A DNA stretch of 64,000 bases, from NCBI GenBank assembly GCA_018340805.1, contig JACMZG010001913.1, positions 6,479,230 through 6,543,229 of the forward strand. Reading direction: 5' to 3'. The position numbers were made by a program, and so were the translations under genes. Source of the stretch: Microvelia longipes (lineage: Eukaryota; Arthropoda; Insecta; Hemiptera; Veliidae). Every line of letters starts with the position of its first letter. Position 1 is the first letter of the stretch. The notes under the pieces are model-generated. The model had not been told where the DNA came from. It searched no databases and saw only the letters and a list, made by a program, of their open reading frames with translations. This document shows positions 17,849-62,772 of the stretch, in pieces.

Positions 17849-18335
17849 CTGATAAGAACCATTTTCTAATCAAAGATTTTCCCCGTGTATTAGCATAGGA
17901 CAACATTTTTAGGAGGTGTTTTTTAATATAATTTTTAGTATTTAACTCTTGAAATGTTATGAAATCGAAAGTTGGACATCTATATTTACGTTAGGAAAGA
18001 AAACAAGTGTGGTTTGTTCGATTTTTCCGAATAAAATACGGTGGTGAAATGTGACCTTTTTTTGTGCATTTTGGACTCTCCGTTTTTTGACTTTTTTTAG
18101 TATAATTCATATTATTTAACTCTTGAAATGTTATGAAATCGAAAGTTGGACATTTATATTATCGAAAAGAAACAAAATCAGTGAGGTTTAGTAGATTTTT
18201 CTGAAATAAATACGGTAGTAAAATCTAATGTTTTTGTTTACATTTTGCACTCGTTTGTTTCTGGTGTTTTTGTACTATTTTTGACTTCTTATTAAGATAA
18301 TATCGTATATTATTGGTTTCAACGACAAAGGTAAT

Positions 18336-18554
18336 TTGTTTATACTGAAAGAAGTATGTATATCAGCATTTGTGGTATGGAATATTAGTAACTTTGTTGA
18401 TAAGTTGCTCAAGTCACTTCTGTGCATTGATGCCGTGCATAATTTAAGTGAAATGTCAACATCTTCTATTCATTTTTATAATCTAGAAGACGTGCATGCT
18501 AGATTTTTGTTCACTGATAAAGGATGCATGGAGACATTGGCACAAGTTGAATAA
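18336..18554 (+). other. 72-codon frame in the left arm, unidentified
   Basis: The frame encodes a peptide containing VWNISNFVDKLLKSLLCID and SSIHFYNLEDVHARFLF. The right arm keeps the last 60 residues on the minus strand (22424-22606) but has an indel near the N terminus. The composition is protein-like rather than repeat-like, but there is no known domain, promoter or splice support. It may be a remnant of an element gene carried in the inverted repeat. Confidence 0.25.
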
Positions 18555-18629
18555 CTTCATGCATAAATAATTACTGTTGTAAGATGTCAATGTCATTAAC
18601 TCAATTTATGTTAAAAACCAAATAATCTG

Positions 18630-19010
18630 TCAATATATAACTGTGCGAGACACCTAGGAAATATAACAAGCAAAATGCAATACTACACCTGGGATTTGTT
18701 CCATCATTCGACATTTGTCTTCATTGATGGCTCTACATAATGTCATGCCCCGCGTTTCGTCACGTGTAACTCATCAGGGTGCCGACGGAGCCTGAACTCA
18801 CTGTAACCTTTGATTAAAATTCCTAAGAATATAATGTGAAGTATTTACTAGAGACGAGCAGTGCTCTCTTACCACCATCATGCTTGGCAATCAAAACATG
18901 TATCATTTGATACTACCGAGTTTTGAAAAACATGAATACTCCCACAATATAACTGATCGAGAGACACCTAGGAAATTTAACTTGCAAAATGCAATGCTAC
19001 AAAATCTATG
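18630..19010 (-). repeat. Hammerhead-bearing dispersed repeat, about 1.2 head-to-tail units
   Basis: Two copies of the motif ending GAGACACCTAGGAAATnTAAC start 314 bp apart (CACCT at 18651 and 18965), so one full unit runs into the start of a second. The ribozyme-like core is on the minus strand at 18747-18792. The unit also carries GCAAAATGCAATnCTAC and GAGACGAGCAGTGCTC blocks found in all copies. It lies inside the left arm. Confidence 0.75.
18747..18792 (-). ncRNA. Hammerhead-ribozyme-like motif (left arm copy)
   Basis: Read on the minus strand: CTCCGTC (cleavage-site GUC), GGCACC, CTGATGA, stem II GTTA-CACG-TGAC, GAAA, then CGCGGGGC, which pairs back to GGCTCCG with one bulge. Every invariant core position (CUGANGA, GAAA, GUH) is present. 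Stem I is only GG/CC with a two-base loop, which is unusually small for a type III hammerhead, so activity is uncertain. It is identical to the right-arm copy at 22184-22229. Confidence 0.65.
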
Positions 19011-20056
19011 TTCATAAAATGATAATGTAATGTCAAACTTTATGACTCATAACAACTGCGAAGCTATGCCCACCTCAAGAAAGTCAAGTTTCATCACGGT
19101 GAAGCCTTCACGAGCATCTGTTGCAACCTTCGTGCGACTGCAGTCAAAATATTTTATTCTTAATTAGGATTTAAACTTGTATTAAACTTTTCTTTCATTG
19201 TTAAAATTTTATTTATAATAAAATTTAGTAAAATTGATTCTTTTATTTTATTCTAATTTCTCTATAACCTACACCAATTTAGGAGGTTTGTCATATAGGA
19301 GCCAGGGTGACCCTATCGACTCGATTGAAGAAGACTTCAGTTGATTTATATGGGCTTAAGTCTGATTTAAATAAACTCAAGTATGCTTTGTTTTATTTTT
19401 ACATTTATAGAATGTATATCTCTGTCGGTACAAGACTAATTAAGTTAACTTGAATAAATAATTTTAGTTGGCCCAAGTTAATCATTTGACTATTTTTGAT
19501 TTAAAATGACCTTTGTCAGCTTGTTCCCACTCATGTCAAATTAAATCTACTTATTGCTTCAGCTTTTATTTATTTGGGTTGAATTGAACCGAATCAACTT
19601 CAATCAGATGAAGCGATTTGAATCAACTATCGACTTAAGTCGATTATCTGTTGAGTCAACTCATATAAAATCGGTTTAAAAGTCAATTTGGCATATCACT
19701 ATTTTATTTCTCATTGAAAGATCTGTTTATCTACAATTTCTCCCCCCCCCCCTCTCAGGCTTTGCCTTGTGGGTTACTTGTATACTTTTGTGTTAACTTT
19801 TTTGTATTCCTTTTTCTTTTTGTATGTATACTTGTAAATAAAGGAATTGTTCAAAAACACAGACTCATGACTACTCAATTTTTTTCTACAATTTAAACAG
19901 ACTCATGATTGATATCTGCCCTATTTTTCGCTTATTATGTATAAATAAAAATTGGAGGAATCGTCTCAATTTTCTTCTGAGACTTTTTTTATGTTCAGGT
20001 AAGTATTATTAGTATAGTATTGCACATTTCTAACTATATAAAATTATCAAATGAAA

Positions 20057-20914
20057 CACCAATTTAGGAGGTTTGTCATATAGGTGCCTGGGCCACCCTA
20101 AATCTATAAGATCTGATATACCTTAGCTTGAACTTTGTTCAGTCAAACACATACCTGACTGAGGTGTCCATCAGTGTCAAGGCAGACAGCATACGAATTT
20201 GTGATAAATATTTGTTGTTAAAAATAGTTTTCTCGATTTTTGAATCGAGAGAGGCATCACATGTGTGGTTCCCAGACTTCTCAGGATATATGAATGAATT
20301 TTTTTGTAAACCTCATTACCACAAATAGCTGATGCAATTTTAAACTTAACCAGCAAAAAGACAACAGTATTTGAATATTGTATAAATAGTGTAATAGAAT
20401 ACTACCTCCGTGGCCGAGGTCGTTAAGGCGTTAGTCTTTACACTGACCTTTGACACCATCCCAGGTTATGCTCTCAGTTGATAGAAGATTATTGTTTAAT
20501 ATATTATCGCCAATTTTTGAATACAATTTGAGCGTAACGGTTGCTACTACCACCCGTAGTGGTTCCCGCATGCGTTATCACTGATGAGCTACAAGGCTCT
20601 AAACGGGCATTATTATTATTATTTTAGGGTAATAGAATACCGTGTTTCTATTTGCGGGTATAGCAAATTTAATGAAACTTGAGATATGACTTCTAATGTA
20701 ATTCACATTTATAGTTCATGGCAGCTTCCTCTTCGCCAGGTTTATTTTATAAAGACTTCAATTATTGAGAGGGTTATAATATCACAAACTACAAAATGAC
20801 AATTACTGTATCCACAGAAGCCATCTGCATTTGATTACAGTAGGTATGACTGATCCTTTTTTCAATCTAAATCTTTTTGTGGTAGAACATTATGAATTCT
20901 AGTAGCATCTAAAA
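20057..20914 (+). other. Spacer (loop) of the giant inverted repeat
   Basis: The 858-bp non-repeated centre begins CACCAATTTAGGAGG, which also occurs inside each arm (19273 and, inverted, about 21705), so a piece of the arm is reused at the junction. It holds a 66-codon unidentified frame (20128-20328, containing VSISVKADSIRICDKYLL) and an inserted SINE (20403-20628). Confidence 0.6.
20403..20628 (+). mobile_element. tRNA-derived SINE with ATT tail and 12-bp target duplication
   Basis: The head GTGGCCGAGGTCGTTAAGG is an A-box-like Pol III promoter element, with a decayed B-box region (CCAGGTTATGC) downstream. The body ends GGCTCTAAACGGGC, then (ATT)n. The insertion is flanked by the direct repeat GTAATAGAATAC (20391-20402 and 20629-20640), diagnostic of LINE-driven retrotransposition. 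The second copy is 59248-59480. Confidence 0.85.
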
Positions 20915-21999
20915 TTTCATTTGATAATTTTATATTGTTAGAAATGTGCAATACTATACTAATAATACTTACCTGAACATAAAAAAAGTCTCAGAAGAAA
21001 ATTGAGACGATTCCTCCAATTTTTATTTATACATAATAAGCGAAAAATAGGGCAGATATCAATCATGAGTCTGTTTAAATTGTAGAAAAAAATTGAGTAG
21101 TCATGAGTCTGTGTTTTTGAACAATTCCTTTATTTACAAGTATACATACAAAAAGAAAAAGGAATACAAAAAAGTTAACACAAAAGTATACAAGTAACCC
21201 ACAAGGCAAAGCCTGAGAGGGGGGGGGGGGGGGTAGAAATTGTAGATAACAGATCTTTCAATGAGAAATAAAATAGTGATATGCCAAATTGACTTTTAAA
21301 CCGATTTTATATGAGTTGACTCAACATAATCGACTTAAGTCGATAGTTGATTCAAATCGCTTCATCTGATTGAAGTTGATTCGGTTCAATTCAACCCAAA
21401 TAAATAAAAGCTGAAGCAATAAGTAGATTTAATTTGACATGAGTGGGAACAAGCTGACAAAGGTCATTTTAAATCAAAAATAGTCAAATGATTAACTTGG
21501 GCCAACTAAAATTATTTATTCAAGTTAACTTAATTAGTCTTGTACCGACAGAGATATACATTCTATAAATGTAAAAATAAAAACAAAGCATACTTGAGTT
21601 TATTTAAATCAGACTTAAGCCCATATAAATCAACTGAAGTCTTCTTCAATCGAGTCGATAGGGTCACCCTGGCTCCTATATGACAAACCTCCTAAATTGG
21701 TGTAGGTTATAGAGAAATTAGAATAAAATAAAAGAATCAATTTTACTAAATTTTATTATAAAATAAAATTTTAACAATGAAAGAAAAGTTTAATACAAGT
21801 TTAAATCCTAATTAAGAATAAAATATTTTGACTGCAGTCGCACGAAGGTTGCAACAGATGCTCGTGAAGGCTTCACCGTGATGAAACTTGACTTTCTTGA
21901 GGTGGGCATAGCTTCGCAGTTGTTATGAGTCATAAAGTTTGACATTACATTATCATTTTATGAACATAGATAATTTGTAGCATTGCATTTTGCAAGTTA

Positions 22000-22345
22000 A
22001 ATTTCCTAGGTGTCTCTCGATCAGTTATATTGTGGGAGTATTCATGTTTTTCAAAACTCGTAGTATCAAATGATACATGTTTTGATTGCCAAGCATGATG
22101 GTGGTAAGAGAGCACTGCTCGTCTCTAGTAAATACTTCACATTATATTCTTAGGAATTTTAATCAAAGGTTACAGTGAGTTCAGGCTCCGTCGGCACCCT
22201 GATGAGTTACACGTGACGAAACGCGGGGCATGACATTATGTAGAGCCATCAATGAAGACAAATGTCGAATGATGGAACAAATCCCAGGTGTAGTATTGCA
22301 TTTTGCTTGTTATATTTCCTAGGTGTCTCTCGCACAGTTATATAT
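22000..22345 (+). repeat. Hammerhead-bearing repeat in the right arm
   Basis: Mirror of 18630-19010. Here the ribozyme sense is on the plus strand. The block order is TTAAATTTCCTAGGTGTCTC, GAGCACTGCTCGTCTC, the core at 22184-22229, then the next unit's start. Confidence 0.75.
22184..22229 (+). ncRNA. Hammerhead-ribozyme-like motif (right arm copy)
   Basis: Stem III 5' strand GGCTCCGT (22184-22191), cleavage C at 22192, GGCACC (22193-22198), CTGATGA (22199-22205), stem II GTTA/TGAC closed by CACG (22206-22217), GAAA (22218-22221), and 3' strand from 22222 pairing back with C22224 bulged. Compared with other copies (CTCTGT/ACAGAG), stem III has CCGT/ACG-GG: an A-U pair changed to G-C on both strands. 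This supports a conserved RNA structure; cleavage is untested. Confidence 0.65.
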
Positions 22346-23202
22346 TGACAGATTATTTGGTTTTTAACATAAATTGAGTTAATGACATTGACATCTTACA
22401 ACAGTAATTATTTATGCATGAAGTTATTCAACTTGTGCCAATGTCTCCATGCATCCTTTATCAGTGAACAAAAATCTAGCATGCACGTCTTCTAGATTAT
22501 AAAAATGAATAGAAGATGTTGACATTTCACTTAAATTATGCACGGCATCAATGCACAGAAGTGACTTGAGCAACTTATCAACAAAGTTACTAATATTCCA
22601 TACCACAAATGGTGATATACATACTTCTTTCAGTATAAATAAATTACCTTTGTCGTTGAAACCAATAATATACGATATTATCTTAATAAGAAGTCAAAAA
22701 TAGTACAAAAACACCAGAAACAAACGAGTGCAAAATGTAAACAAAAACATTAGATTTTACTACCGTATTTATTTCAGAAAAATCTACTAAACCTCACTGA
22801 TTTTGTTTCTTTTCGATAATATAAATGTCCAACTTTCGATTTCATAACATTTCAAGAGTTAAATAATATGAATTATACTAAAAAAAGTCAAAAAACGGAG
22901 AGTCCAAAATGCACAAAAAAAGGTCACATTTCACCACCGTATTTTATTCGGAAAAATCGAACAAACCACACTTGTTTTCTTTCCTAACGTAAATATAGAT
23001 GTCCAACTTTCGATTTCATAACATTTCAAGAGTTAAATACTAAAAATTATATTAAAAAACACCTCCTAAAAATGTTGTCCTATGCTAATACACGGGGAAA
23101 ATCTTTTGTTTAGAAAATGGTTCTTATCAGAACTGTTCTTCTCGTTCTTCTTTGGGTTTCTTCCTGTTGTTCTTAGATAGAATTGCCAACTATGAAGCTG
23201 AA

Positions 23203-24218: not shown

Positions 24219-24471
24219 GGGCAAACTAAAAGTCCAAGTTATACCTTCACATTAACTATAGAAAAGCAAGTTTAGCATTCTAATAAAAATCATAAATCTT
24301 TGTGGTCATAAAGAACATGTAATCTAGATACTACTTTAATGACATTGGAATACTTTGGTCTTGCTAGTCTGAATAAATATAATCAGAAAATAAAAAATTT
24401 AAATTAATTAATTATTTAATTAAGATTAAACAAAAATGATATAATATAATTGTCCGAGAGACAGCTAGGGC

Positions 24472-24792
24472 CATAGAGATATATACTAGAGGGGGCATAG
24501 CCTACCTCAATACATTGAGAGGTCTGAAACACCTTTTTGGGGCTCTTAAGGGCTCTGTGTAACCTCATTGAAACCTCCTTTAAGAGTGAGTTAAGGTTAT
24601 AATAAATCAATTGATTTTGGCTTCCCGCACATTGTTCGTGTTTTGATTTGTATGTTAAACATTCTCCTATATAAGTTATTGTAATTTTGTACTGATTATT
24701 TGATTTTATTTATAATCGAAGGTGGTCAGGCTTTTCTTTTTCGATGTTTCACAATTTAATTTATATGGCCCCTCTAGTAATGTATCTCTATG
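24472..24792 (+). mobile_element. hAT-type MITE (CATAGAGATAT family), full length
   Basis: The 321-bp copy has both terminal repeats (CATAGAGATATATACTAGAG; CCCCTCTAGTAATGTATCTC). The flanking 8-mers GCTAGGGC and CCTAGGAA agree at five of eight positions, a decayed target duplication. Confidence 0.85.
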
Positions 24793-24871
24793 CCTAGGAA
24801 GGAACAAGCAAAATTCTATGCTAAGCATTAATGTTGAGCATAATGGCGGTGTTAAGAAGTGATGATAGAGG

Positions 24872-25275: not shown

Positions 25276-25615
25276 AGTAAGAATGGTGGTAAGAGAGCAC
25301 CACTTGTTTATAAGGCGCGGTCGAATATCCATGGCCTTCTAAAACATTGGATCACCAACAAACTTTTTTTATAACTTTTTTTTCAAAATTTTCAGTAATT
25401 AGCCGGGTTTGTGATAAATGAAGCCTAATATGACATGTCAAATAACACAAATCAGGTAGATAACATTGACGTCTAACAGTAGTTATGTATGTACCAAGTT
25501 AGATTAAAAATAAATCGTTGAGTGAATGTAAATACTCTTTGAAATTTTGCTTGTTACATTCCCAAGTGTCACACAAAATTATATTGTGTCAACGATTTTT
25601 CCAAACTCGGTAGTA
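25276..25615 (-). repeat. Hammerhead-family repeat split by a palindromic MITE
   Basis: 25276-25309 (GAATGGTGGTAAGAGAGCACCACTTG) and about 25550-25615 (GCTTGTTACATTCCCAAGTG ... GGTAGTATCAAA) are two ends of one repeat copy. Between them lies a palindromic MITE (25311-25550) starting TAAGGCGCGGTCGAATATCC. The segment carrying the ribozyme core is missing here. Confidence 0.6.
25311..25550. mobile_element. Palindromic MITE (TAAGGCGCGG family), one arm
   Basis: The left terminus is intact, including GGATCACCAACAAAC. The copy runs through ACATTGACGTCTAACAGTAG and ends near CTCTTTGAAA. It has lost part of the left arm's interior and the right terminus compared with 58773-59242. Confidence 0.7.
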
Positions 25616-26180
25616 TCAAACAATATATTAAACACAGATACCTGTAATCAGATTATAATTTAACACTTACATATAATAGATGGGTAGAGGTAAAGAAATA
25701 GTAAATAAATAAATAAAAATATTTATTTATTTATTTAAAGAAATAGTAATAGTAAATATTATTAGACAGTTTTTATTTCAACAATGATACAATATTCCAT
25801 AACAGTACAATTCATCTGTTTCGTAAACTACTGATTTTTAAACAATTTGTGCAAAGAAAATTAAAATTTATAAAACCATAGTATTTTAATAATTTATTTT
25901 CAACAGCTTAAATAAAATCGATCCATAACATTCATTCATAAACATATGAAGTACAAAATTATATTGTCTAGAGGTCAAAAAATATCACTAAATGAAAGAA
26001 AAAATGTAAGAGCTTTTGGAATAAGCAGAACTTACAGGGAAGTATTCTAGAACATCAATTAAGTTTAAGTGAGACACCTATGTCAAAACACATATAAGTT
26101 TCACTCAAATTTATGTTCTTTAAATACTTCTTTAAGTCCCGACAGGAATCAAAAGGAATTGAAAAGCTGACGTAGCTAGG
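25616..26180. other. AT-rich intergenic DNA
   Basis: No gene seen. An ATTTATTTATTT run lies near 25715. Confidence 0.5.
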
Positions 26181-26876: not shown

Positions 26877-27173
26877 GGAACGAAGAAAAGTCTCTCCACA
26901 AAACAATAATTTATTCAAAGCGCTTTCAACCTAACATGAGGCCATCATCAGAGCCAGATATAATAGAAAGAATAAACGGCTAAGAGAAAGACATTAAAGG
27001 TAAATATAAGTCAAACTGTGGAATTCGCAGTTTTCCTTCTCTTCTTTTTCGACTCGACGATGTCGGCGAGTCGTAATAGACTGCCATCTTCTGGCACTGA
27101 TGATGGCCTCATGTTAGGTTGAAAGTGCTTTGAATAAATTATAGTTTTGTGGAGAGACTCTTTTCTTCGTTCC
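26877..27173. mobile_element. Foldback MITE with GGAACGAAGAAAAGTCTCTC ends
   Basis: The 297-bp element has ~85-bp inverted ends: AAGTCTCTCCACAAAAC ... AACCTAACATGAGGCCATC against its mirror GATGGCCTCATGTTAGGTTG ... GGAGAGACTC. The mirrored core CTGATGATGGCCT...AGGTTGAAAG is shared with 45891, 53158, 28555 and 33330. Confidence 0.8.
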
Positions 27174-27174
27174 T

Positions 27175-27660
27175 TTAATTATGAACAACTACACTGGTGC
27201 TCGTTCGAAATCAATATGAGAATAAATAATGAATGGCAAGAGAGAAAATAGATGAATTTGAAGACAGTATGTATACACTACAATCATAGAAGAAAATGTG
27301 ATTGCTTATAATCTATTTCAAAAGGCCATAAATATCCTAATTAAAATATGATATTTTTTGTAAACATAAATACAGTACATCTTAAAATCTAACAGATATC
27401 ACTAACTCATTTTTTTCAAAAATGGACCATCATTTCCAACCACCCTCTCCCGGCCCTTCAAATATTATCGTTTAAAAAATAAATATTTACCTTTATTGTG
27501 TATCACAGTCAAAAATAAAAAGTCAATTAAGAAATTTATCATATCAATGGAGGAGATGGGATTCAGGCACCATGCAAGACACGATGCAAACTAATTCATC
27601 AGTGAATTTGATTTAAAATTTAACAAAAGAAAAAATTTAAATCTCTAGAAATTTAAATTC
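27175..27660. other. AT-rich intergenic DNA
   Basis: No gene or long repeat recognised. Confidence 0.5.
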
Positions 27661-27664
27661 TAGA

Positions 27665-27935
27665 GTTCTATGAAATTATTAAAGGCTTGACATAATGTCA
27701 AGTCCCACTCTGTTTTGTTACAGCAACACACCAGGCCACAAACAGAGTCAGAACTCAATCTCCAATTAAAATTCTGAAAAATACAAAGTGAAGTGTATTA
27801 ACCAGAGACGAGCGGTGCTTTCTTACCCCCACCATGCTCGGCAATTAAAATATTATCAAAGATACTACCAAGTTTTTCAGAACAAATACTTGATACAATA
27901 CAATTGAGCAAGGGACACCAGCAAAATGTTTAATA
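27665..27935 (-). repeat. Hammerhead-family repeat, degenerate core
   Basis: CCCACTCTGTTTTGTTACAG, GAGACGAGCGGTGCTTTC and ACCAAGTTTTTCAGAA match the family. On the minus strand the core reads CTCTGTT ... TGGTGTG ... GTAAC-AAAA-CAGAG, so both CTGATGA and GAAA are mutated. The ribozyme is dead in this copy. Confidence 0.7.
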
Positions 27936-28544: not shown

Positions 28545-28645
28545 TCACCGGCACTGATGATGACCTTTAGTTGGTTGAAAGCCAGCTATGCTTTATTTTA
28601 AATAAATAATACATCAGTGGAGAGACTTATTTTATTATTCTGTAC
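28545..28645 (+). mobile_element. Half copy of the GATGATGACCT...GGTTGAAAGC foldback family
   Basis: ACTGATGATGACCTTTAGTTGG, TTGAAAGCCAGC and TCAGTGGAGAGACTTATTTT form the right half of the family. The mirror half is missing. Confidence 0.65.
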
Positions 28646-30645: not shown

Positions 30646-30880
30646 CTACTATTGGGGGTCCTAAATTTTGCCAAAACCCAGGTTCATTGAGAGTTAGGGA
30701 TCTTTTATGAGTACCTGACATCCCACATGCTCAGAACCACCGGCTTAACATCCTTTAGAAGGACGGGATAGAAAGGATTTCCATCCCTCGCACGAAAATC
30801 GTAGAGGCCCCGACCGGGATTGAACCCGGACTGTCTGAGAGGCAGGCGAACGTGCTAACCTATACACCACCGGGACTCCA
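30642..30880 (-). mobile_element. tRNA-derived SINE with TA tail
   Basis: On the minus strand the head (30879-30807) reads GTATAGGTTAGCACG (A box) ... GGGTTCAATCCCGG (B box), like a Gly/Asp/Glu-type tRNA. The T loop lacks one base and the acceptor and anticodon stems do not pair, so it is a tRNA relic rather than a tRNA gene. A ~160-bp body follows and ends in TA repeats. A truncated relative lies at 5403-5530. Confidence 0.8.
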
Positions 30881-32260: not shown

Positions 32261-32479
32261 AAATAAATAAGAATTTAAAAGTAATAAAAACAAAAAAGAA
32301 TGCATTTCATTCAAAATTATACAATATAATACTTAAGGTTGTGTAAGACTTATTTTTTGTTATTGACTTAAGTATAAGTTTTACTTAATCTTAGGTAAAG
32401 TCACTGAATGCTCCCTTGTTTAAAAGTTGACAGTAAAAACTTGCGGACAAAGCGTATGAACTGTATCTAGAGAGGACAA

Positions 32480-32850
32480 GTAAAATATATTATTTGATAC
32501 TACCTAGTTTTGCAAAACATGAATATTTGACAAAATATAATTGTGCGAGAGACACCTAGGAAATCTAACAAACAAAATGCAATGCTACATCTGGGAACTG
32601 TTCCGACATTCGTCATCATTGATGGCTCGAAATAATGTCATGTCCCACTCTGTTTTGTTACGGCTAACTCATCAGGGCCCCGACAGAGCCTAATCTCTCT
32701 TTGACCTTTAATTAAAATTCCAACAAAACGAAACAGAGTGGAACACGACGTAATGTAGAGCCATCAAGGATGACAAATGATAGACAAGTTCCCAGATGTA
32801 GCATTGCTTATAATATTTCCTAGGTGTCTCTTGCACAACTATATTGTGTC
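32480..32850. repeat. Hammerhead-family repeat arranged as an inverted pair
   Basis: 32530-32715 is one orientation (core on minus, 32648-32688: CTCTGTC, GGGGCC, CTGATGA, GTTAGCCGTAAC, then AAAA instead of GAAA). From about 32715 the sequence turns around (ACGAAACAGAGTGG at 32728) with GAAA intact but without the CTGATGA part. The copy therefore folds on itself, and neither half has a complete core. Confidence 0.7.
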
Positions 32851-32859
32851 TTCAAGTAA

Positions 32860-33500
32860 AATCTCCACACATTTATTTAAATATTATTATGATTTTCATA
32901 TTCAACTAAATAAAAGTCATCATCAGTGGCAAACGAAACAAATAAATAATTACAAATAGTTGGAAAAATTATGGATAAGGAAAAAGTTATAAAGCTTATT
33001 GCTTGTGGAAAAAGTATGACCTCATTAACTCAACCTCATGACGTCATCAAAATTTTGAGATAGTAAACTTTTTCAGATTTTATTAGTTTTTTAGAATCAG
33101 CTATCCTCGATACTTGCTGTAAAATTTAAAATACCTGGACGGGTTTCAGCTTAACCCTATCATCAGCAGACAGAGCAACGCAGGAGCTCTTAACTAACCC
33201 TTCCTTCTGATGATGTTCAGGGATATTCTTATTCAACAGCAACTATCTACGGTAGCTGATTCTTTTACTGCTTCACTGCCTTGGATTAAATACAACCTCA
33301 TAGAGTTTATTTGTTAGCTAGGCACTAATGATAACCCTTATTTGATTAAAAGTTGGTAATGCTTTATTTTAAATAAATATTTACATCAGTAAAGATATTT
33401 GTTCTAATAATCTGATCACGATCAAATCTTCTAGTGCTCAAACTCAGAATAGAGAGAATAATCTTAGTTTTAGGTTCCTAGATTATCTTAGGTCTAAACC
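32860..33500. other. AT-rich DNA with half foldback copy (33315-33405)
   Basis: 33315-33405 holds CACTAATGATAACCC...TTGAAAAGTTGG-like sequence and TCAGTAAAGAT, a decayed half of the GATGATG...GAAAGC family. No gene seen. Confidence 0.4.
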
Positions 33501-41955: not shown

Positions 41956-42099
41956 TAAGACTTTTCCATAAAAAAAGGTGACAATTTAAGATTTCACCCA
42001 TTTTAACCCGATACTAGATACTTAGAATAATACTAATATAGAAGGAGCATACCTATTGATAATAGAGTTGTTTGCTGCCAGCTAGTGACAACAATTAAA

Positions 42100-42430
42100 A
42101 GTAATATCATTTGATACTATTAAGTTTTCGAAAACATGAATAGTTGACACAATATAATTGTGCGAGAGACACCTAGGAAATGTAACTAGCAAAATGCATT
42201 GCTACATCTAGTAACTGTTCCATCATTCGACATTCATCATCATTGATGGCTCGACATATTGTCATGTCCTACTCTGTTTTGTTACGTCTAACTCATTAGG
42301 GCGCCGCCAACAGTACCTGAACCCACTCTGGCTTTCACTTAGAATTCCAAAGAATATAACATGAAGTATTTACCAGAGACGAGCAGTGCTTGCTTACCGT
42401 CAATATGCACTCCAAAGAGCAGAACTTATA
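42100..42430 (-). repeat. Hammerhead-family repeat, near-complete unit with mutated core
   Basis: It runs from ATCATTTGATACTATTAAG through GTGCGAGAGACACCTAGG to GAGACGAGCAGTGCTTGC. The core (minus, 42272-42313) reads GGCGCC, CTAATGA, GTTAGACGTAAC, AAAA, CAGAG. Two invariant bases are changed, so it is inactive. Confidence 0.75.
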
Positions 42431-45890: not shown

Positions 45891-46110
45891 AAAATAAAAA
45901 AACAAGTCTCTCCACTGATGTTTAATTGTAATGACAAAGCCAGCTTTCAGACTTGACAGTCCATCATCAGTGCCGAACCAAGAAAGTATAAAAAAAAAAT
46001 TGAAATTTTTATTCTTTGTTGGTTAAGCACTGATGATGGACTGTCAAGTCTGAAAGCTGGCTTTGTCATTACAATTAAACATCAGTGGAGAGACTTGTTT
46101 TTTTATTTTT
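45891..46110. mobile_element. Near-perfect palindromic foldback (GATGATGGACTGTCAAGTC core)
   Basis: ~90-bp arms: ACAAGTCTCTCCACTGATG ... CAGCTTTCAGACTTGACAG, mirrored exactly around a short AT centre at about 45995. It shares the CTGATGATG...GAAAGC core with 26877 and 53158, but the hairpin between them is GGACT/AGTCT rather than GGCCT/AGGTT. Confidence 0.85.

Positions 46111-47020: not shown

Positions 47021-47070
<50 letters not shown>
46980..47070. repeat. CA and TA microsatellites
   Basis: ACACACAC runs followed by a TA run, directly before a hammerhead-family repeat. Confidence 0.9.
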
Positions 47071-47074
47071 TACA

Positions 47075-47335
47075 CATTTAATTGTGCGAGACACCTAGGA
47101 AAAGTAACAAGCAAAATGCAATGCTACATCTGGGAACTGTTCCATCATTCAACATTTGTCATCATTAATGGCTCGACATAATGTCACGTTTACATCTAAC
47201 TCATCAGGGCGCCGACAGAGCCTGAACTCACTCTGACCTTCAATTAAAATACCAAAGAATATAATTTGAAGTATTTACCAGAGAGGAGTGGTGCTCTTAT
47301 ACCACCATAATAATTGGCAAGCAAAACATATATAA
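47075..47335 (-). repeat. Hammerhead-family repeat, core partly deleted
   Basis: GTGCGAGACACCTAGGAAA to GAGAGGAGTGGTGCTC. Core on minus (47183-47220): CTCTGTC, GGCGCC, CTGATGA, GTTAGATGTAA, after which GAAA and the 3' stem III strand are deleted. Confidence 0.7.
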
Positions 47336-51500: not shown

Positions 51501-54500
51501 GAATATACAATTTGCCAAATTTATACTGCAACATGTCTTCGGACGAGCTTCGCTCGTCCTTAGATAGTAAATATATCAGTATCATTCTCAGCAGTCATCC
51601 ATACAGCACTGACCACGCTCAATTTTTATGATACAACAAAAATTATGGATATAGTTGTCGTATTGAAACGAAACTTAGTGCACTTATTTATTAACTAAAT
51701 GTATACACTTGGACTAAAACTCAATTAAATCATTTTCTGATTTTTTTACAATTTTTTTAAAAACTTACACAAATCAATCGATAAAAATTGATATAAATCT
51801 GATAATGAGATGAAACTTGATAAATATGTTAGTCTTGTACATAGCCACATGCGTGCCAAATCTTAATCCTATCAAATCAAGTTTTTTTTGCATTTTATGA
51901 TTTTTCAATTTTTTCGCTGAGTCATTATTGCGGGTATACAAGTCATTCGATAAAAACTGAAATAATGCTGATAATGAAATGAAACTTGGCACACTAGTAG
52001 TTCTTGAATATGAATACGTGCACGTGAAATCTCAAACTGATAAACAAATTATTCTGTGTTTATTAAAATTTTGATGAGTCATAATAATGACTCATCAAGA
52101 ACCCCACATCACTAATTTGTAATAAGAGATTAGTTATGTTAAAAAAAATCTGGATAGCACAACAACACCAACAGATTGATTTTCGAAACAAGTTTTTACT
52201 CTTCAGCGTAAATACTCCGGGAGATACGATGATAACAGACACACTCACATACAGACAGACACATAGGAGGTCTGGTCTAATCTTGTAAACTCATCCTGAG
52301 ACGCTGAAAGCCCTTCACTTAAAATATTATTACGATAAAATAAACTGCTGAAATGGGTTTTGATGAAACTGATAAGAAGAATTCATGAACAGAATTTTAC
52401 ATAGCTGTGATTTACCAATAAAGGAAATATATGTAAAATACGGAAAACTTCAGAATTGTAAATACTTAATTTTTTGTATTGTGAATTTGTATTTTAATTA
52501 TAAATATATCAAAATAATATAGTAATATTAGTAATATTTAGTAAAAGAAGATAATAAAGTTTATAATTGTTTGTGATTGAGAATTGCATGTATTTAAATT
52601 AATTAATTATAAAAAAAGTAAATAAGTTAATATGTGCATGCAATTTTAAAGCCCTACTAGGCAACCACAGTCCATGACTGATTTGCATGTTATAATTATG
52701 TTACATTATTATGTATTGTAATAATCTCTAAAAAAAGCAATAAATGGTTATTCTATTCTATCAAAATTTCTAGAGTCCTAAGAAAATAAAATAAAAATGC
52801 AGCCTATATGCATGTAATATTCATATGGAGCATGCAAAAAAAAAAAAAAAAAAAAAAAAAAACATAGGAGGTCTTAAAATGGATAGTTTCGGTAAAATTC
52901 TGGTTTTGAATATTTTTGCAAACACAATACTTTACCTGTATTATACTTATGGTTTAAATGAGGGAAAGTAAAAAATTATAATAAATTTAATAAAAATATT
53001 ACAACAACAAATTATAAAAACTAAATAGAATACTACCTCTAAGTAAAAATACTGCAAGTAAGAATATATTATATAATATAATATATTAAGGACTTTTGTC
53101 CTTAAAAAATTGTTTCATACAGGATTGAGACAACCAGCTAATAACAATACCTGGTGTAAGGATGTAAATAAAAGTCTATCCACAAATAAATTTCAAACAA
53201 TGTAATGATGACAAAACCGGCTTTCAACCTAATACAGGTCATCCTCAGTGCCGGTGAGAAGAAGCTAATTTTTCCTCTTGAGTCTTGTGGTTAGATTTGA
53301 GACTGGATGAAGACAGTCTCAAATCTAACAATTATTTTTCTATGTGTCTGCATCCAGTCTCAAATCTAACAACAAGACTCAAGAGGAAAAATTAGCTTCT
53401 TCTCACCGGCACTGAGGATGACCTGTATTAGGTTGAAAGCCAGTTTTGTCATCATTACATTGGTTGAAATTTATTTGTGGATAGACTTTTATTTACATCC
53501 TTATGGTAAAAAATCCACTAGCGCTTATAATTTAAATAATACCTGGTGATACTGAAGGACAAGTCTAGTAGGGGTGTAGTCTAATCGATTGGCTTCCCAA
53601 TCGCTCAGATAAATCCAATCAGAATCCTTTAATGCTAATTTAACTAAAGAACACCTATGTGTGGATGATATCAAATCATTTTTCTTGTAGCTATCGTGTA
53701 CGGGAGATATTATCCCACAGACTACTTGGTAATATCCACTTCTGTGGAGGAAATCTCGTGCCACTTCTAAAACATAAATAGATATTTAAATATTAATTTT
53801 AACCAATTTCCTCTGTAAAAGTTATTTTGCAGTATAAATAAATCTAGTACAATTTTTGTATCCTAAGAAATATTCAACTAATGATACATAAGGAGATATC
53901 ATACAATTCAGAGGTATTCATGGAGATAAATCATAACAGATATTAGCAGTTGCAATAATTGTAGCAGTTTTACCTCCATAGTCATAAAATTCATTTAGTA
54001 GTAAAGACTGCAGGTGGGTCAATGTTAAAGTACCATTCTCTAGCTTTGTGTAGGAATGTCAAATTTGAAATTCTATCAAGTACATATGGACATGGGTATA
54101 AGACAAATCTAAAGAGTCCCCACACATCAAAATCTGTTCAGTAGATTAAAGTGTAGGTGTGTCAAGGTATAAAACTGCTGTTTGCTAGCTTAGTTTTTCG
54201 CTCCGGGTGCAGCGTAGGAATGTTAAATTTAAGATGTTATTAGGTAGGAATGGACACAGGCAAACGTAAAATCTAAAAAGTTCTCATACGTCAAAATCCG
54301 TAAAGTAGTATAGGCTGTTGGTGCGTCATCAAAAAGTGAATGAAGTCGTCAAAAATGCAATTTTTAAATCTATTTTTCTCTACTTCTATTTGGCCAATTT
54401 GAGTAATCTACAAGACACACTCTTTTGTTTAAAAGGCAAAATGCCATTAAAATTCAAATTTGCCACAATATGTTGAAATTAAAATTCCTGAACGTTTGTT

Positions 54501-59579: not shown

Positions 59580-60690
59580 AAATAGCGTAATGAAAAGAAA
59601 TTAACATTTTATATCATTGCATTGAAGTCTTCATCTACACATATAATAAATAAATAAATTTAGGAGATCGTCTGAAAAAAAAATAAGTGAAATTAAAAAA
59701 CAAAATCAATATACTCTTGGAATGAGTAAAGAGCCTTGCTAATTAGTTTTGCTTGAATTTTTCCCTTAAGTTCAGTAAACGGAATTTGCCTTTTTTCTAA
59801 TTTCAGTTTATTAAAGAACTCTATTCCCAAAGTCCTGTGGCCAACTTCTGATTTACTGAATCTATGCTTAGGAATTGTATAAGAATTTCTAGTAGGTGTG
59901 GTTAGGGGTACTGGTGGGAGAGGGTTAGTTGCAAAAGCAACTTATGCATACTTCGCTTTTAGAATTCTAATGAGTTAGACACAACAAAGCAGAGTGGGAC
60001 ATGACTTTGAAAAATAAAGAATCAATTCCCAGATTTAGTTTAGCAGTTTACTTTATACATTCCTGTTAGGTGTCTTACACAATTATATTAAAAGAAATCG
60101 TATAAGAAGTGATTAGATTATGGGGTGATTCCATAATTTCAAACTAACTGTATAAATAAAACCTTTTGATACGTTAACCTTCATTTCAATCCTGGCAGCT
60201 TTTTAGCTATTGTAACTAATTATTCTAACTTAGCTATTTAATTTTAATTTATTTAATCATTTCTTTATCTATGTATTGCATTGTATATTGCATGTATATG
60301 GAAATCATATTAGATTTGAATGAATAAAAACTAAATAAGGGAAAAATAGGACAATAGAACATAAATCAAATAATTACACCTAATTATTAGCTTTTATCTA
60401 TGGTTTATTTACCGTTCGTCCTTGAATACGTAATGAGAATTGTATTCTCAAGTGGGTTTGTTATTGTAACCCCGTAAAATGTTTATATCTATTGAGTGCT
60501 CGATTGCTATACTTTATAAATTGTAAATATTTAAGCTTGAAGCTTTGTTATTATTTTATGTAAGCAATTATATGTCAATAAATGAAAAATTAATTTATTA
60601 TGAACAAATTCTTACACAGCTTAAAATTATATACAAAAGAGTAAAAATAGTTTGATACAACTGAGTTATGTAAAACATGAATAGTCAGCA
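59580..60690. other. Lectin intron 2: AT-rich DNA with a hammerhead-family fragment (59960-60090)
   Basis: 59967-60000 reads CTAATGA, GTTAGACACAAC, AAAG, CAGAGTGGGAC on the plus strand, a decayed ribozyme core without its GTC half. The flank to 60090 (CCTGTTAGGTGTC, CACAATTATATT) confirms the family. No exon seen. Confidence 0.5.
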
Positions 60691-60995
60691 CAATATACAG
60701 TAGTTTAGTCCAATAGACAGTGGTTCAGTCCAATATACAGTGGTTTAGTCCAAAAGACAGGTCAATATACAGTGTTCAGTTCAGTGTTCAGTCCAATATA
60801 CAGTGGTTCAGTCCAATATACAGTGTTCAGTCCAATATACAGTTTCAGTCCAATATAACAGTGTTTAGTCCAAGACAGTGATTCAGTCCAATATACAGTG
60901 GTTCAGTCCAATATACAGTGATTCAGTCCAATATACAGTGGTTCAGTCCAATATACAGTGGTTCAGCCCAATATACAGCGGTTCAGCAACAAAAG
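60690..60995 (+). repeat. 20-bp minisatellite (GTTCAGTCCAATATACAGTG), about 15 units
   Basis: GGTTCAGTCCAATATACAGT repeats with truncated units. It starts right after ACATGAATAGTCAGCACAAT, the leading block of the hammerhead-family repeat, so it may have expanded from that element. Confidence 0.9.
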
Positions 60996-61158: not shown

Positions 61159-62772
61159 AGTATATAGATCTGCCAAGGAAAGGACTCTACAGAAACTGGA
61201 TCCAATACATAACGCCGGAATACGATTATGCACTGGAGCATTTAAAACAAGCCCAATACCATCTCTTCTAGTTGACGCAAACGAACCTCCATTACAACTA
61301 CGTCGGGACCAACTTGTCCTTGCCTATGCGTACAGAAAGCTTCAATTCCCTCATCACTACGTCACACACAAGATACAATCACCAAAATACCACAGAAATT
61401 ATGAAAGAAAACCTAATTTAACCAAACCGATCGGACACCATCTTGAAGACTTGATTAGAACGTATGAAATGGACAACTTACTAAAACCAAGTACATCCAA
61501 ATACTGCATTGAAACTACAACAGCACCATGGCTTATGAAGAAACCACGACATCTCTATTCATTCAAATCTAAAAAGCAACACCTGGAAATAATATACCAA
61601 CTTAACAAAATCAAACAAAATTACAATAATGCAGAATTTATATACACAGATGGAGCTAAAAACAACGAAGGCACTGGATACGCATTCACAACCAGCTCAG
61701 GTCAAATCGAACAGTTTAAGGGAATTAAACTTAGTTCTATAACTTATAGAACTAGAAGCTATAAAGAAAGGGCTAGAGCATGCCATAAAAAATTGCAAAA
61801 AGGACTTAATCATACTTACCGACTCTTCCAGCGGACTGCAAGCAATGAACAATATATACAGCCAGAACAACATCATTATAGAAATTAGAGAAAAGATAAG
61901 ATCAAACAACTTAAATGTAAAGTTTTGCTGGGTACCTGGCCACTCTGGGATCCCGGGGAACGAAACAGCTGACAAGCTGGCTAAATCTGCTATTTCCAAT
62001 GGACAACTTTCGGAAACTTTGGTGACAATAAATGACATTAAAGCAACCCTTAGACTGAAACTAAATAAACGGTGGCAACATATATGGGATTCCTTAGGTA
62101 ACAACAAACTAAATTCTATCAAACCTATTATAGGGGAGTGGGGGACTTGCTATAGACAAAACCGACACGAGGAGACTGTCCTCTGCAGATTAAGACTAGG
62201 ACACACTCGACTGACTCACAGCTATCTGTTTTCGAGGGACCTAGAACCGCCAAAATGTAGACTTTGCAACGACATACTTACCTTCAAGCATTTTCTAATC
62301 GACTGTACTAGGCTGACACAAACGATAACAAACCATAAAATTCCCACAAATTTACCTGACCTCTTAGGGGACGACGAAACCAATATCAAAAACTTATTTA
62401 CTTACCTAAAAGAAACTTCTACTTTGGCTGAAATTTAAAACGTCATCAATTATTATTACCAACCTACCTTTTTATCCATTCTGCATTTATATAATTTTAT
62501 TTATCCCTGTATTTTTAAAACACCCATTCTCTCATTTTATTTTAAAGTTTATCCCTTCTTCTAATTAGTCCTCAATAATTAATTAGCTAACTAATCAACT
62601 TAGTAATTTTTCTTATACTTTCTATCAAAAACTAACCCAATCAATATATAAAAACAGTTTAAATCCAAAACACCTTTACCTTTATGTTGTTTTCTTGTCT
62701 AACCAATGTTAATATAGTTGTTGCGTGGAGCTAATAATGTTTAATTAAGCTCCACAATAAATAAATAAATAA
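61159..62772 (+). mobile_element. 5'-truncated jockey-clade-like non-LTR retrotransposon
   Basis: The 1.6-kb insertion holds the end of a reverse-transcriptase ORF, an RNase H domain, a short 3' UTR and an (AATA)n tail. It is flanked by ATAAAACTTAAAAAA (61144-61158 and 62773-62787), a 15-bp target-site duplication. 5' truncation is typical of target-primed reverse transcription. It is in the lectin's second intron, in sense orientation. Confidence 0.9.
61160..62438 (+). pseudogene. LINE ORF2 C-terminal region with RNase H domain, frameshifted
   Basis: From 61160 an open frame encodes the region after the polymerase (KLDPIHNAGIRLCTGAFKTSP), then the RNase H start (FIYTDGAKNNEGTGYAF). A one-base loss near 61745-61760, before the conserved Glu, moves the reading to a second frame, which carries ELEAI, ILTDSSSGLQA and WVPGHSGIPGNETADKLA. 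It ends with a CRLC...FKHFLIDC zinc-knuckle-like tail and TAA at 62438. RNase H acidic residues (TDGA Asp, ELEA Glu, TDSS Asp, ETAD Asp) are all readable but split between frames. The endonuclease and most of the reverse transcriptase are absent. Confidence 0.88.

Follow-up and report, generated by a model that had tools for sequence, protein, structure and literature searches.

Does a short repeat scattered through the genome of the hemipteran Microvelia longipes carry a hammerhead ribozyme, and how does that repeat spread? The question is raised by a 64,000-nucleotide stretch of contig JACMZG010001913.1 (positions 6,479,230 to 6,543,229), which we call the window. The initial annotation of this DNA described hammerhead-like cores in a dispersed repeat of about 314 bp, with intact copies in both arms of a giant inverted repeat, and suggested a ribozyme-bearing satellite or retrozyme-like family. 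Genome-wide, that suggestion is well supported by complete cores, arrays, and marks of retrotransposition, and cleavage is predicted. We consider it likely that the family is a short (~315-bp unit), noncoding, nonautonomous, retrozyme-like element of the non-long-terminal-repeat (non-LTR) kind with a compact hammerhead core. The window copies themselves are decayed relics.

Complete cores and tandem arrays in the genome

The strand order of the core, 5'-stem III-GUC-GGCGCC-CUGAUGA-stem II-GAAA-stem III, is the type III hammerhead topology. We searched 664.6 Mb of the genome with a 35-base core query, and the reversed pattern served as a control. The exact core, with every invariant base including G12, was found in 3,207 copies (1,564 + 1,643). 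When up to three mismatches were tolerated and site 12 could be G or A, there were 7,543 matches (3,727 + 3,816). The reversed control returned 0 in both cases. This genomic core differs from the majority of five window copies at one position, site 12, which was G in 96 and A in 4 of the 100 zero-mismatch places listed.

Copies also occur in tandem arrays at ~315 bp, with 13, 17, and 13 core matches at the array loci L067, L068, and L069, respectively. Orientation changes within arrays: nine minus-strand matches are followed by four plus-strand matches in L067, and nine and then eight lie on either side of the center of L068. The majority array unit is 315 bp long with 41.9% GC. Stems II and III were fully paired in array units in the Rfam alignment, and the Rfam Hammerhead_3 model matched 15 of the 17 units of L068, 14 of them at 37.0 bits and with every pair intact in the alignment shown. 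No LTR was seen in the unit and locus alignments (no search aimed at LTRs was made).

The family might instead be an ordinary repeat resembling a short interspersed nuclear element (SINE), in which the hammerhead match is coincidental. An enzyme of a long interspersed nuclear element (LINE) or of a Penelope-like element would move it, and the core would have been fixed by descent from a successful source copy. In simulation, a complete single-strand hammerhead descriptor arises by chance at 2.2e-5 per 64 kb, so copy number alone leaves coincidence possible. Against this, the 3,207 exact cores have every invariant base, good pairing in two stems, and a self-complementary hexamer placed as a dimer needs. 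A complete core whose loop I is palindromic and whose stem III has six further pairs is expected at 7.7e-7 per 64-kb window, or at 5.1e-6 if site 12 is left free.

Marks of retrotransposition

Insertions were analyzed at 30 loci (L037 to L066) that were chosen via exact core matches and represent 27 distinct elements. Their right-hand ends cluster, whereas their left-hand ends vary. There are two preferred 3' ends, about 156-183 and 203-216 nucleotides (nt) after GTC and ~40 nt apart. In 22 of the 30 rows (19 of the 27 distinct elements), a forward segment adjoins an inverted one, and the other 8 rows are single forward copies. In 14 of the 19 inverted-plus-forward elements, one of each preferred end stands at the outer ends, a regularity of the insertion process. 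Exact direct repeats of 11 to 14 bp flank 10 of the 30 rows (8 of the 27 elements); in the control, pairings of flanks across loci gave repeats of at least 11 bp in 0.1% of cases. The window element near 32.6 kb shares the inverted-plus-forward layout, with an exact 10-bp flank repeat. One-mismatch repeats of 9 to 10 bp at the 42.3-kb copy and at arm R were rejected as target site duplications, being expected by chance in AT-rich flanks (an estimate made by hand). The family moves by retrotransposition: the preference for certain 3' ends, the variation of the 5' junctions, the many 5' inversions, and the flank repeats together indicate target-primed reverse transcription with twin-priming-like inversions.

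So many inverted copies could also be taken as parts of a cut-and-paste inverted-repeat DNA transposon, either a foldback element or one like a miniature inverted-repeat transposable element, to which the hammerhead would be irrelevant. The 32.6-kb copy forms an inverted repeat on its own, the arm copies lie inside a 5.3-kb palindrome, and 40 scored genomic places with arm-type copies include 10 opposite-strand pairs that are 2.6 to 15 kb apart. However, an element with terminal inverted repeats would have matching arms. The 27 elements lack fixed, equal terminal inverted repeats, because their inverted and forward segments are of unequal length, and the family at large has variable 5' junctions, arrays, and single forward copies. 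We therefore regard a DNA transposon as very improbable for the family as a whole. Fixed, equal terminal repeats are possible in the sub-group of the arms, and this explanation may apply to that sub-group alone.

Retrotransposition of a unit this short has parallels in known retrozymes (comparisons with published systems here and below are with the cited passages of each paper). Animal retrozymes are tandem repeats of 150 to 450 bp with less than 50% GC, no LTR, type I hammerheads, and target duplications of more than 4 bp, and some act as dimers (PMC7229834, Cervera and de la Pena 2020). The family described here resembles these metazoan non-LTR retrozymes in its short, low-GC repeat, its range from dimers to long arrays, its duplications of more than 4 bp, and its single hammerhead per unit (PMC7229834). 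This shared setting of ~315 bp, 41.9% GC, tandem arrays, and flank repeats also argues against a SINE-like repeat with a coincidental match. The family differs from them in having the type III strand order, with helix I rather than helix III collapsed (PMC7229834). It also has many head-to-head copies, whereas the words "inverted" and "head-to-head" are absent from PMC7229834. Type III hammerheads are typical of plants (PMC7229834), and insects are named as well (PMC7761336). With the plant LTR retrozymes, the family shares type III strand order in a nonautonomous retroelement. However, those have LTRs, bodies of ~700 bp, 4-bp target duplications, and a full helix I, compared with ~315 bp, duplications of 11 to 14 bp, and a collapsed helix I here (PMC7229834, PMC7761336).

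Helix I and a candidate double hammerhead

GGCGCC is self-complementary, and helix I can be either 2 bp closed by a 2-base loop within one unit or 6 bp between two units. A two-base loop closes a helix I hairpin poorly, so the active form is likely to involve pairing of two units. In folding predictions for the 52-nt majority of the five window cores (site 12 = A), the minimum free energy (MFE) structure of the dimer was a double hammerhead. The GGCGCC hexamers of the two strands paired with each other, C17 and CUGAUGA were unpaired, and stems II and III were formed. Pairing probabilities were 0.93 to 0.94 for stem I, 0.70 to 0.74 for stem II, and 0.88 to 1.0 for stem III. In a two-unit array transcript, the mean probability of the inter-unit stem I was 0.76. 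These models suggest that the hammerhead probably acts as a dimer swapped at the palindromic helix I. However, some predictions went the other way. The 54-nt genomic core with G12 had a dimer MFE structure other than the double hammerhead. Stem III pairings were 0.44 and 0.15 in the two-unit transcript and no more than 0.28 in a three-unit transcript, and dimers of the actual arm, 32.6-kb, and 42.3-kb cores did not have all three helices in register.

Cleavage as an ordinary type III monomer, with the palindromic hexamer incidental, would also make the core a real hammerhead. The Rfam type III model does fit single units, and a single unit pairs stem III internally at a mean of 0.77. However, stem II reached a probability of 0.13 in the single unit, and a helix I of 2 bp closed by 2 bases leaves no loop I to contact loop II. 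This is unlike the usual type III hammerhead, in which a helix I of 6 bp carries a 6- to 8-nt loop that makes that contact (PMC7936874). A monomer is therefore an improbable active form.

If the dimer does form, two units that belong to the same multimeric RNA, or to separate RNAs, would pair GGCGCC with GGCGCC and share stem III strands, giving a helix-I-swapped double hammerhead. Read-through RNA would be cut after GUC into unit-length RNA, which a host enzyme would ligate into circles. A non-LTR reverse transcriptase, of LINE or Penelope-like origin, would copy the circles, primed at the target; copying of circular RNA by such an enzyme is also the model that its authors give for animal retrozymes (PMC7229834). 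More than one round of copying of a circle (or copying along a multimer) would produce the tandem arrays, and priming from both target strands may account for the head-to-head copies.

The nearest known relatives of such a form are the dimeric type I hammerheads of the newt, avocado sunblotch viroid (ASBVd), Aedes-type repeats, and Penelope-like elements. These too have a collapsed palindromic helix that is stable only between two copies, but the swapped helix is III in them and I in this family (PMC6155905, PMC3088659, PMC7761336). Type III hammerheads in agents like hepatitis delta virus (HDV) and in termite and dipteran genomes resemble this family in being type III outside plants and in insect genomes. 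They are isolated motifs with an unusually long helix I, in contrast to the minimal helix I and thousands of repeats seen here (PMC7936874). The pDo500 satellite of Dolichopoda cave crickets likewise has a hammerhead in an abundant repeat, with single and double forms proposed. That satellite measures 500 bp, has compensatory changes, and conserves its core better than the flanks; neither compensatory change nor such conservation is established for this family (PMC2837043). No double hammerhead with a helix I swap was found in the open-access literature searched, and we make no claim of its absence in print. A search of that literature for type III hammerheads together with animal genomes returned no papers. 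Pattern scans of viral contigs for pieces of the family gave 0 matches. A scan of prokaryote genomes gave a single match, on a Pseudomonas contig, which we take as chance. The pattern GTCGGCGCCCTGATGA...GAAA was found in seven viral contigs with identical surrounding sequence, in which no hammerhead stem II was seen.

We tentatively propose a second dimeric hammerhead architecture, a proposal that is slightly more apt to fail than to hold. In it, type III strand order would be swapped at a palindromic helix I, in thousands of retrozyme copies, and a circular template would be copied from both target strands at two sites ~40 nt apart, giving head-to-head arrays.

Window copies and their neighbors

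The family copies in the window are as follows (positions in the window).

17849-23130, unstranded: 5.3-kb inverted repeat (palindrome) that carries both arm copies
18749-18791, minus strand: arm L core, with the same letters as the arm R core over 43 bases
21978-22349, plus strand: arm R repeat, ~1.2 family units, flanked by a 10-bp repeat with 1 mismatch that is not significant alone
22185-22227, plus strand: arm R core, with all invariant core bases, loop I hexamer GGCACC, and a stem III that is 3 nt short and out of register
24437-24470, minus strand: family tail piece, split by a ~322-bp repeat, with a second piece at ~24793-24823
25544-25626, plus strand: family tail, with a 5' piece at 25283-25302 and its interior replaced by another repeat
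27640-27838, minus strand: decayed 27.7-kb copy, placed by sequence alignment, with no Rfam hammerhead match
32487-32852, minus strand: whole 32.6-kb element, an inverted plus a forward segment between exact 10-bp repeats ATTTTACTTG (32477-32486 and 32853-32862)
32647-32689, minus strand: best-paired window core, every pair intact in the Rfam alignment, with A at site 12, hexamer GGGGCC, and a Hammerhead_3 score of 29.3 bits
32727-32851, plus strand: inverted segment of the 32.6-kb element, holding the 3' half of the core only (sequence GAAACAGAG), with G12 present
42092-42410, minus strand: 42.3-kb copy of ~1 unit, with GGCGCC, CTAATGA (G5 = A), A at site 12, and a 3-base insertion ahead of the hexamer
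47062-47312, minus strand: 47.2-kb copy, which keeps the stem III 5' strand, GTC, GGCGCC, and CTGATGA intact but has lost GAAA and the 3' strand of stem III by deletion
59967-60088, plus strand: decayed partial 60.0-kb copy holding the 3' half of the core, with an extra tail fragment at 60651-60697 (minus strand)

Both arms have the layout that the initial annotation gave them, namely, GTC, a 6-base segment, CTGATGA, a 4-bp stem II with a tetraloop, and GAAA, over 43 identical bases. Its dispersed repeat of ~314 bp was borne out as well. Unit spacing in the window is 313/314 bp, and nhmmer and blastn placed relatives near all five of the further sites it listed (near 32.6, 42.3, 47.2, 27.7, and 60.0 kb), with mere pieces of the family at two more (near 24.4-24.8 and 25.3-25.6 kb). 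The full invariant core (C3 U4 G5 A6 N7 G8 A9, G12 A13 A14, A15.1-U16.1, and H17; list after PMC3088659) is present in the window in the arms only. Site 12 is A in the 32.6-, 42.3-, 27.7-, and 60.0-kb copies, and the 47.2-kb copy has lost its 3' half. The G12A change lowers hammerhead activity by several orders of magnitude (PMC2553840). CpG decay was rejected as a proven source of A12 in the window: all four departures are CA and none is TG, but G12 is nevertheless the commoner genomic state.

No hammerhead in the window reached the Rfam gathering score, which is 48.5 bits for Hammerhead_3, a model that expects a longer helix I and loop. At relaxed thresholds, Hammerhead_3 matched both arms at 23.7 bits (E value of 1.4 across all families) and the 32.6-kb copy at 29.3 bits, and the 42.3- and 27.7-kb copies had no Rfam hammerhead match even then. 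A loose descriptor like the arms is expected by chance at 8.5e-4 per 64-kb window (types III and I pooled over both strands; 14 + 14 occurrences in 4.22 Gb simulated). If site 12 is left free but a long stem III is required, the expectation from simulation is 1.5e-4. The window by itself is therefore suggestive of a hammerhead and no proof of one.

The arms kept every invariant core base, as the initial annotation stated, but their stem III is not intact. In the wider alignment, they are without 3 nt in its 3' strand relative to the other copies. ViennaRNA favors GCUCCGU/GCGGGGC, which is 2 nt off the hammerhead register, with an MFE of -13.4 kcal/mol versus +1.5 kcal/mol for hammerhead stems II and III (~15 kcal/mol worse). 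This off-register stem III rules out the arms as the intact form of the family. Neither do they count as two separate witnesses, because the arms are 99% identical across a 1,935-column alignment and thus are one sequence present twice. The compensatory A-U to G-C change reported for stem III was also rejected, because it depends on a poorer, gap-free alignment and is not above shuffles. We conclude that no window copy is a convincing working hammerhead.

The arm copies are passengers inside a larger inverted-repeat element. The ends of the palindrome were checked by eye and showed no clear target duplication. Among 28 loci picked for arm likeness, both window arms included, G12 was kept in 27. 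Within the palindrome, at 20380-20640, lies a tRNA-like SINE that ends in (TTA)n and contains CTGATGAGCTACAAGGCTCTAAAC, which is reminiscent of a degenerate hammerhead. The same SINE segment adjoins arm-type copies in L012 and L015.

Several results weigh against a retrozyme-like element, and some of them also speak for a SINE-like repeat with a coincidental match. Nothing attains the gathering score, not even complete genomic units (37.0 bits), and AT-rich hairpins in the Rfam search of L068 matched microRNA (miRNA) families at similar E values. Covariation did not rise above noise in the window copies: pairs changed on both sides numbered 1 of 13 among five copies in the alignment without the 3-nt gap, and 120 of 500 shuffles did as well. 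Within the window, both of these outcomes go against the initial annotation by refuting tests that it set itself. The broken core CTGATAA is carried by 7 of the 28 arm-type loci (L022 and L028 to L033), a lineage that multiplied nonetheless; thus, the sub-group multiplied at least partly without a working core. Element ends do not fall at the predicted cut site. Ends at that site would be expected from a linear cleaved RNA but are not required of a circular one.

Conservation of the core also bears on this. In the window, the core was not better conserved than its flanks, with variable columns of 11/38 versus 22/71 and 38/138 in four copies. With gaps included, the core was the worst part of the four rows (divergence of 32/176, compared with 50/404 and 33/408 in the flanks). 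Of the array units, 44 were located by their flanks; all of them kept G12, and their core (22/1936 from the typed unit) was clearly less divergent than the upstream side (139/4537) and only slightly less than the downstream side (69/4473). Across all 97 spanning units, divergence was 92/4268 in the core and 460/9690 and 323/9816 in the flanks; site 12 was G in 93 of them, A in three, and gapped in the remaining one. However, the arrays and the 30 insertion loci were picked via exact core matches, and these conservation figures are biased accordingly. With the exact genomic cores and their published setting on the other side, we judge a SINE-like repeat with a coincidental match to be unlikely, and we continue to favor the retrozyme-like element.

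The window holds other repeats. A second family of ~322 bp, ~80 to 86% identical, occurs at 24470-24791 and in at least seven similar stretches, and one of its copies splits a copy of the hammerhead family. A further repeat, at 25309-25546, lies inside another family copy and has relatives near 6.0-6.3 and 58.8-59.2 kb. Words of the form CTGATGATG...GTTGAA recur in yet another repeat (26924-26951, 27097-27124, 28554-28580, and 32894-32926), and no hammerhead model matched them within an E value of 10. Nearly perfect palindromes at 53247-53413 and 45948-46052, with sub-cutoff matches to miRNA models on both strands, are probably palindromic transposable elements. There is also an open reading frame with an RNase H domain at 61743-62438, from a LINE-type retrotransposon, and a tRNA-Gly (GCC) gene or pseudogene at 30806-30876 (minus strand).

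If the retrozyme-like core cleaves, hammerheads can function with helix I cut down to a palindrome, the mirror of the dimers swapped at helix III. Searches that require a normal helix I or the Rfam cutoff would then overlook such families, as the gathering score does here. Finally, head-to-head arrays with two preferred ends offer genomic evidence that can be used on the circular-RNA template model, and one insertion may record several rounds of copying.

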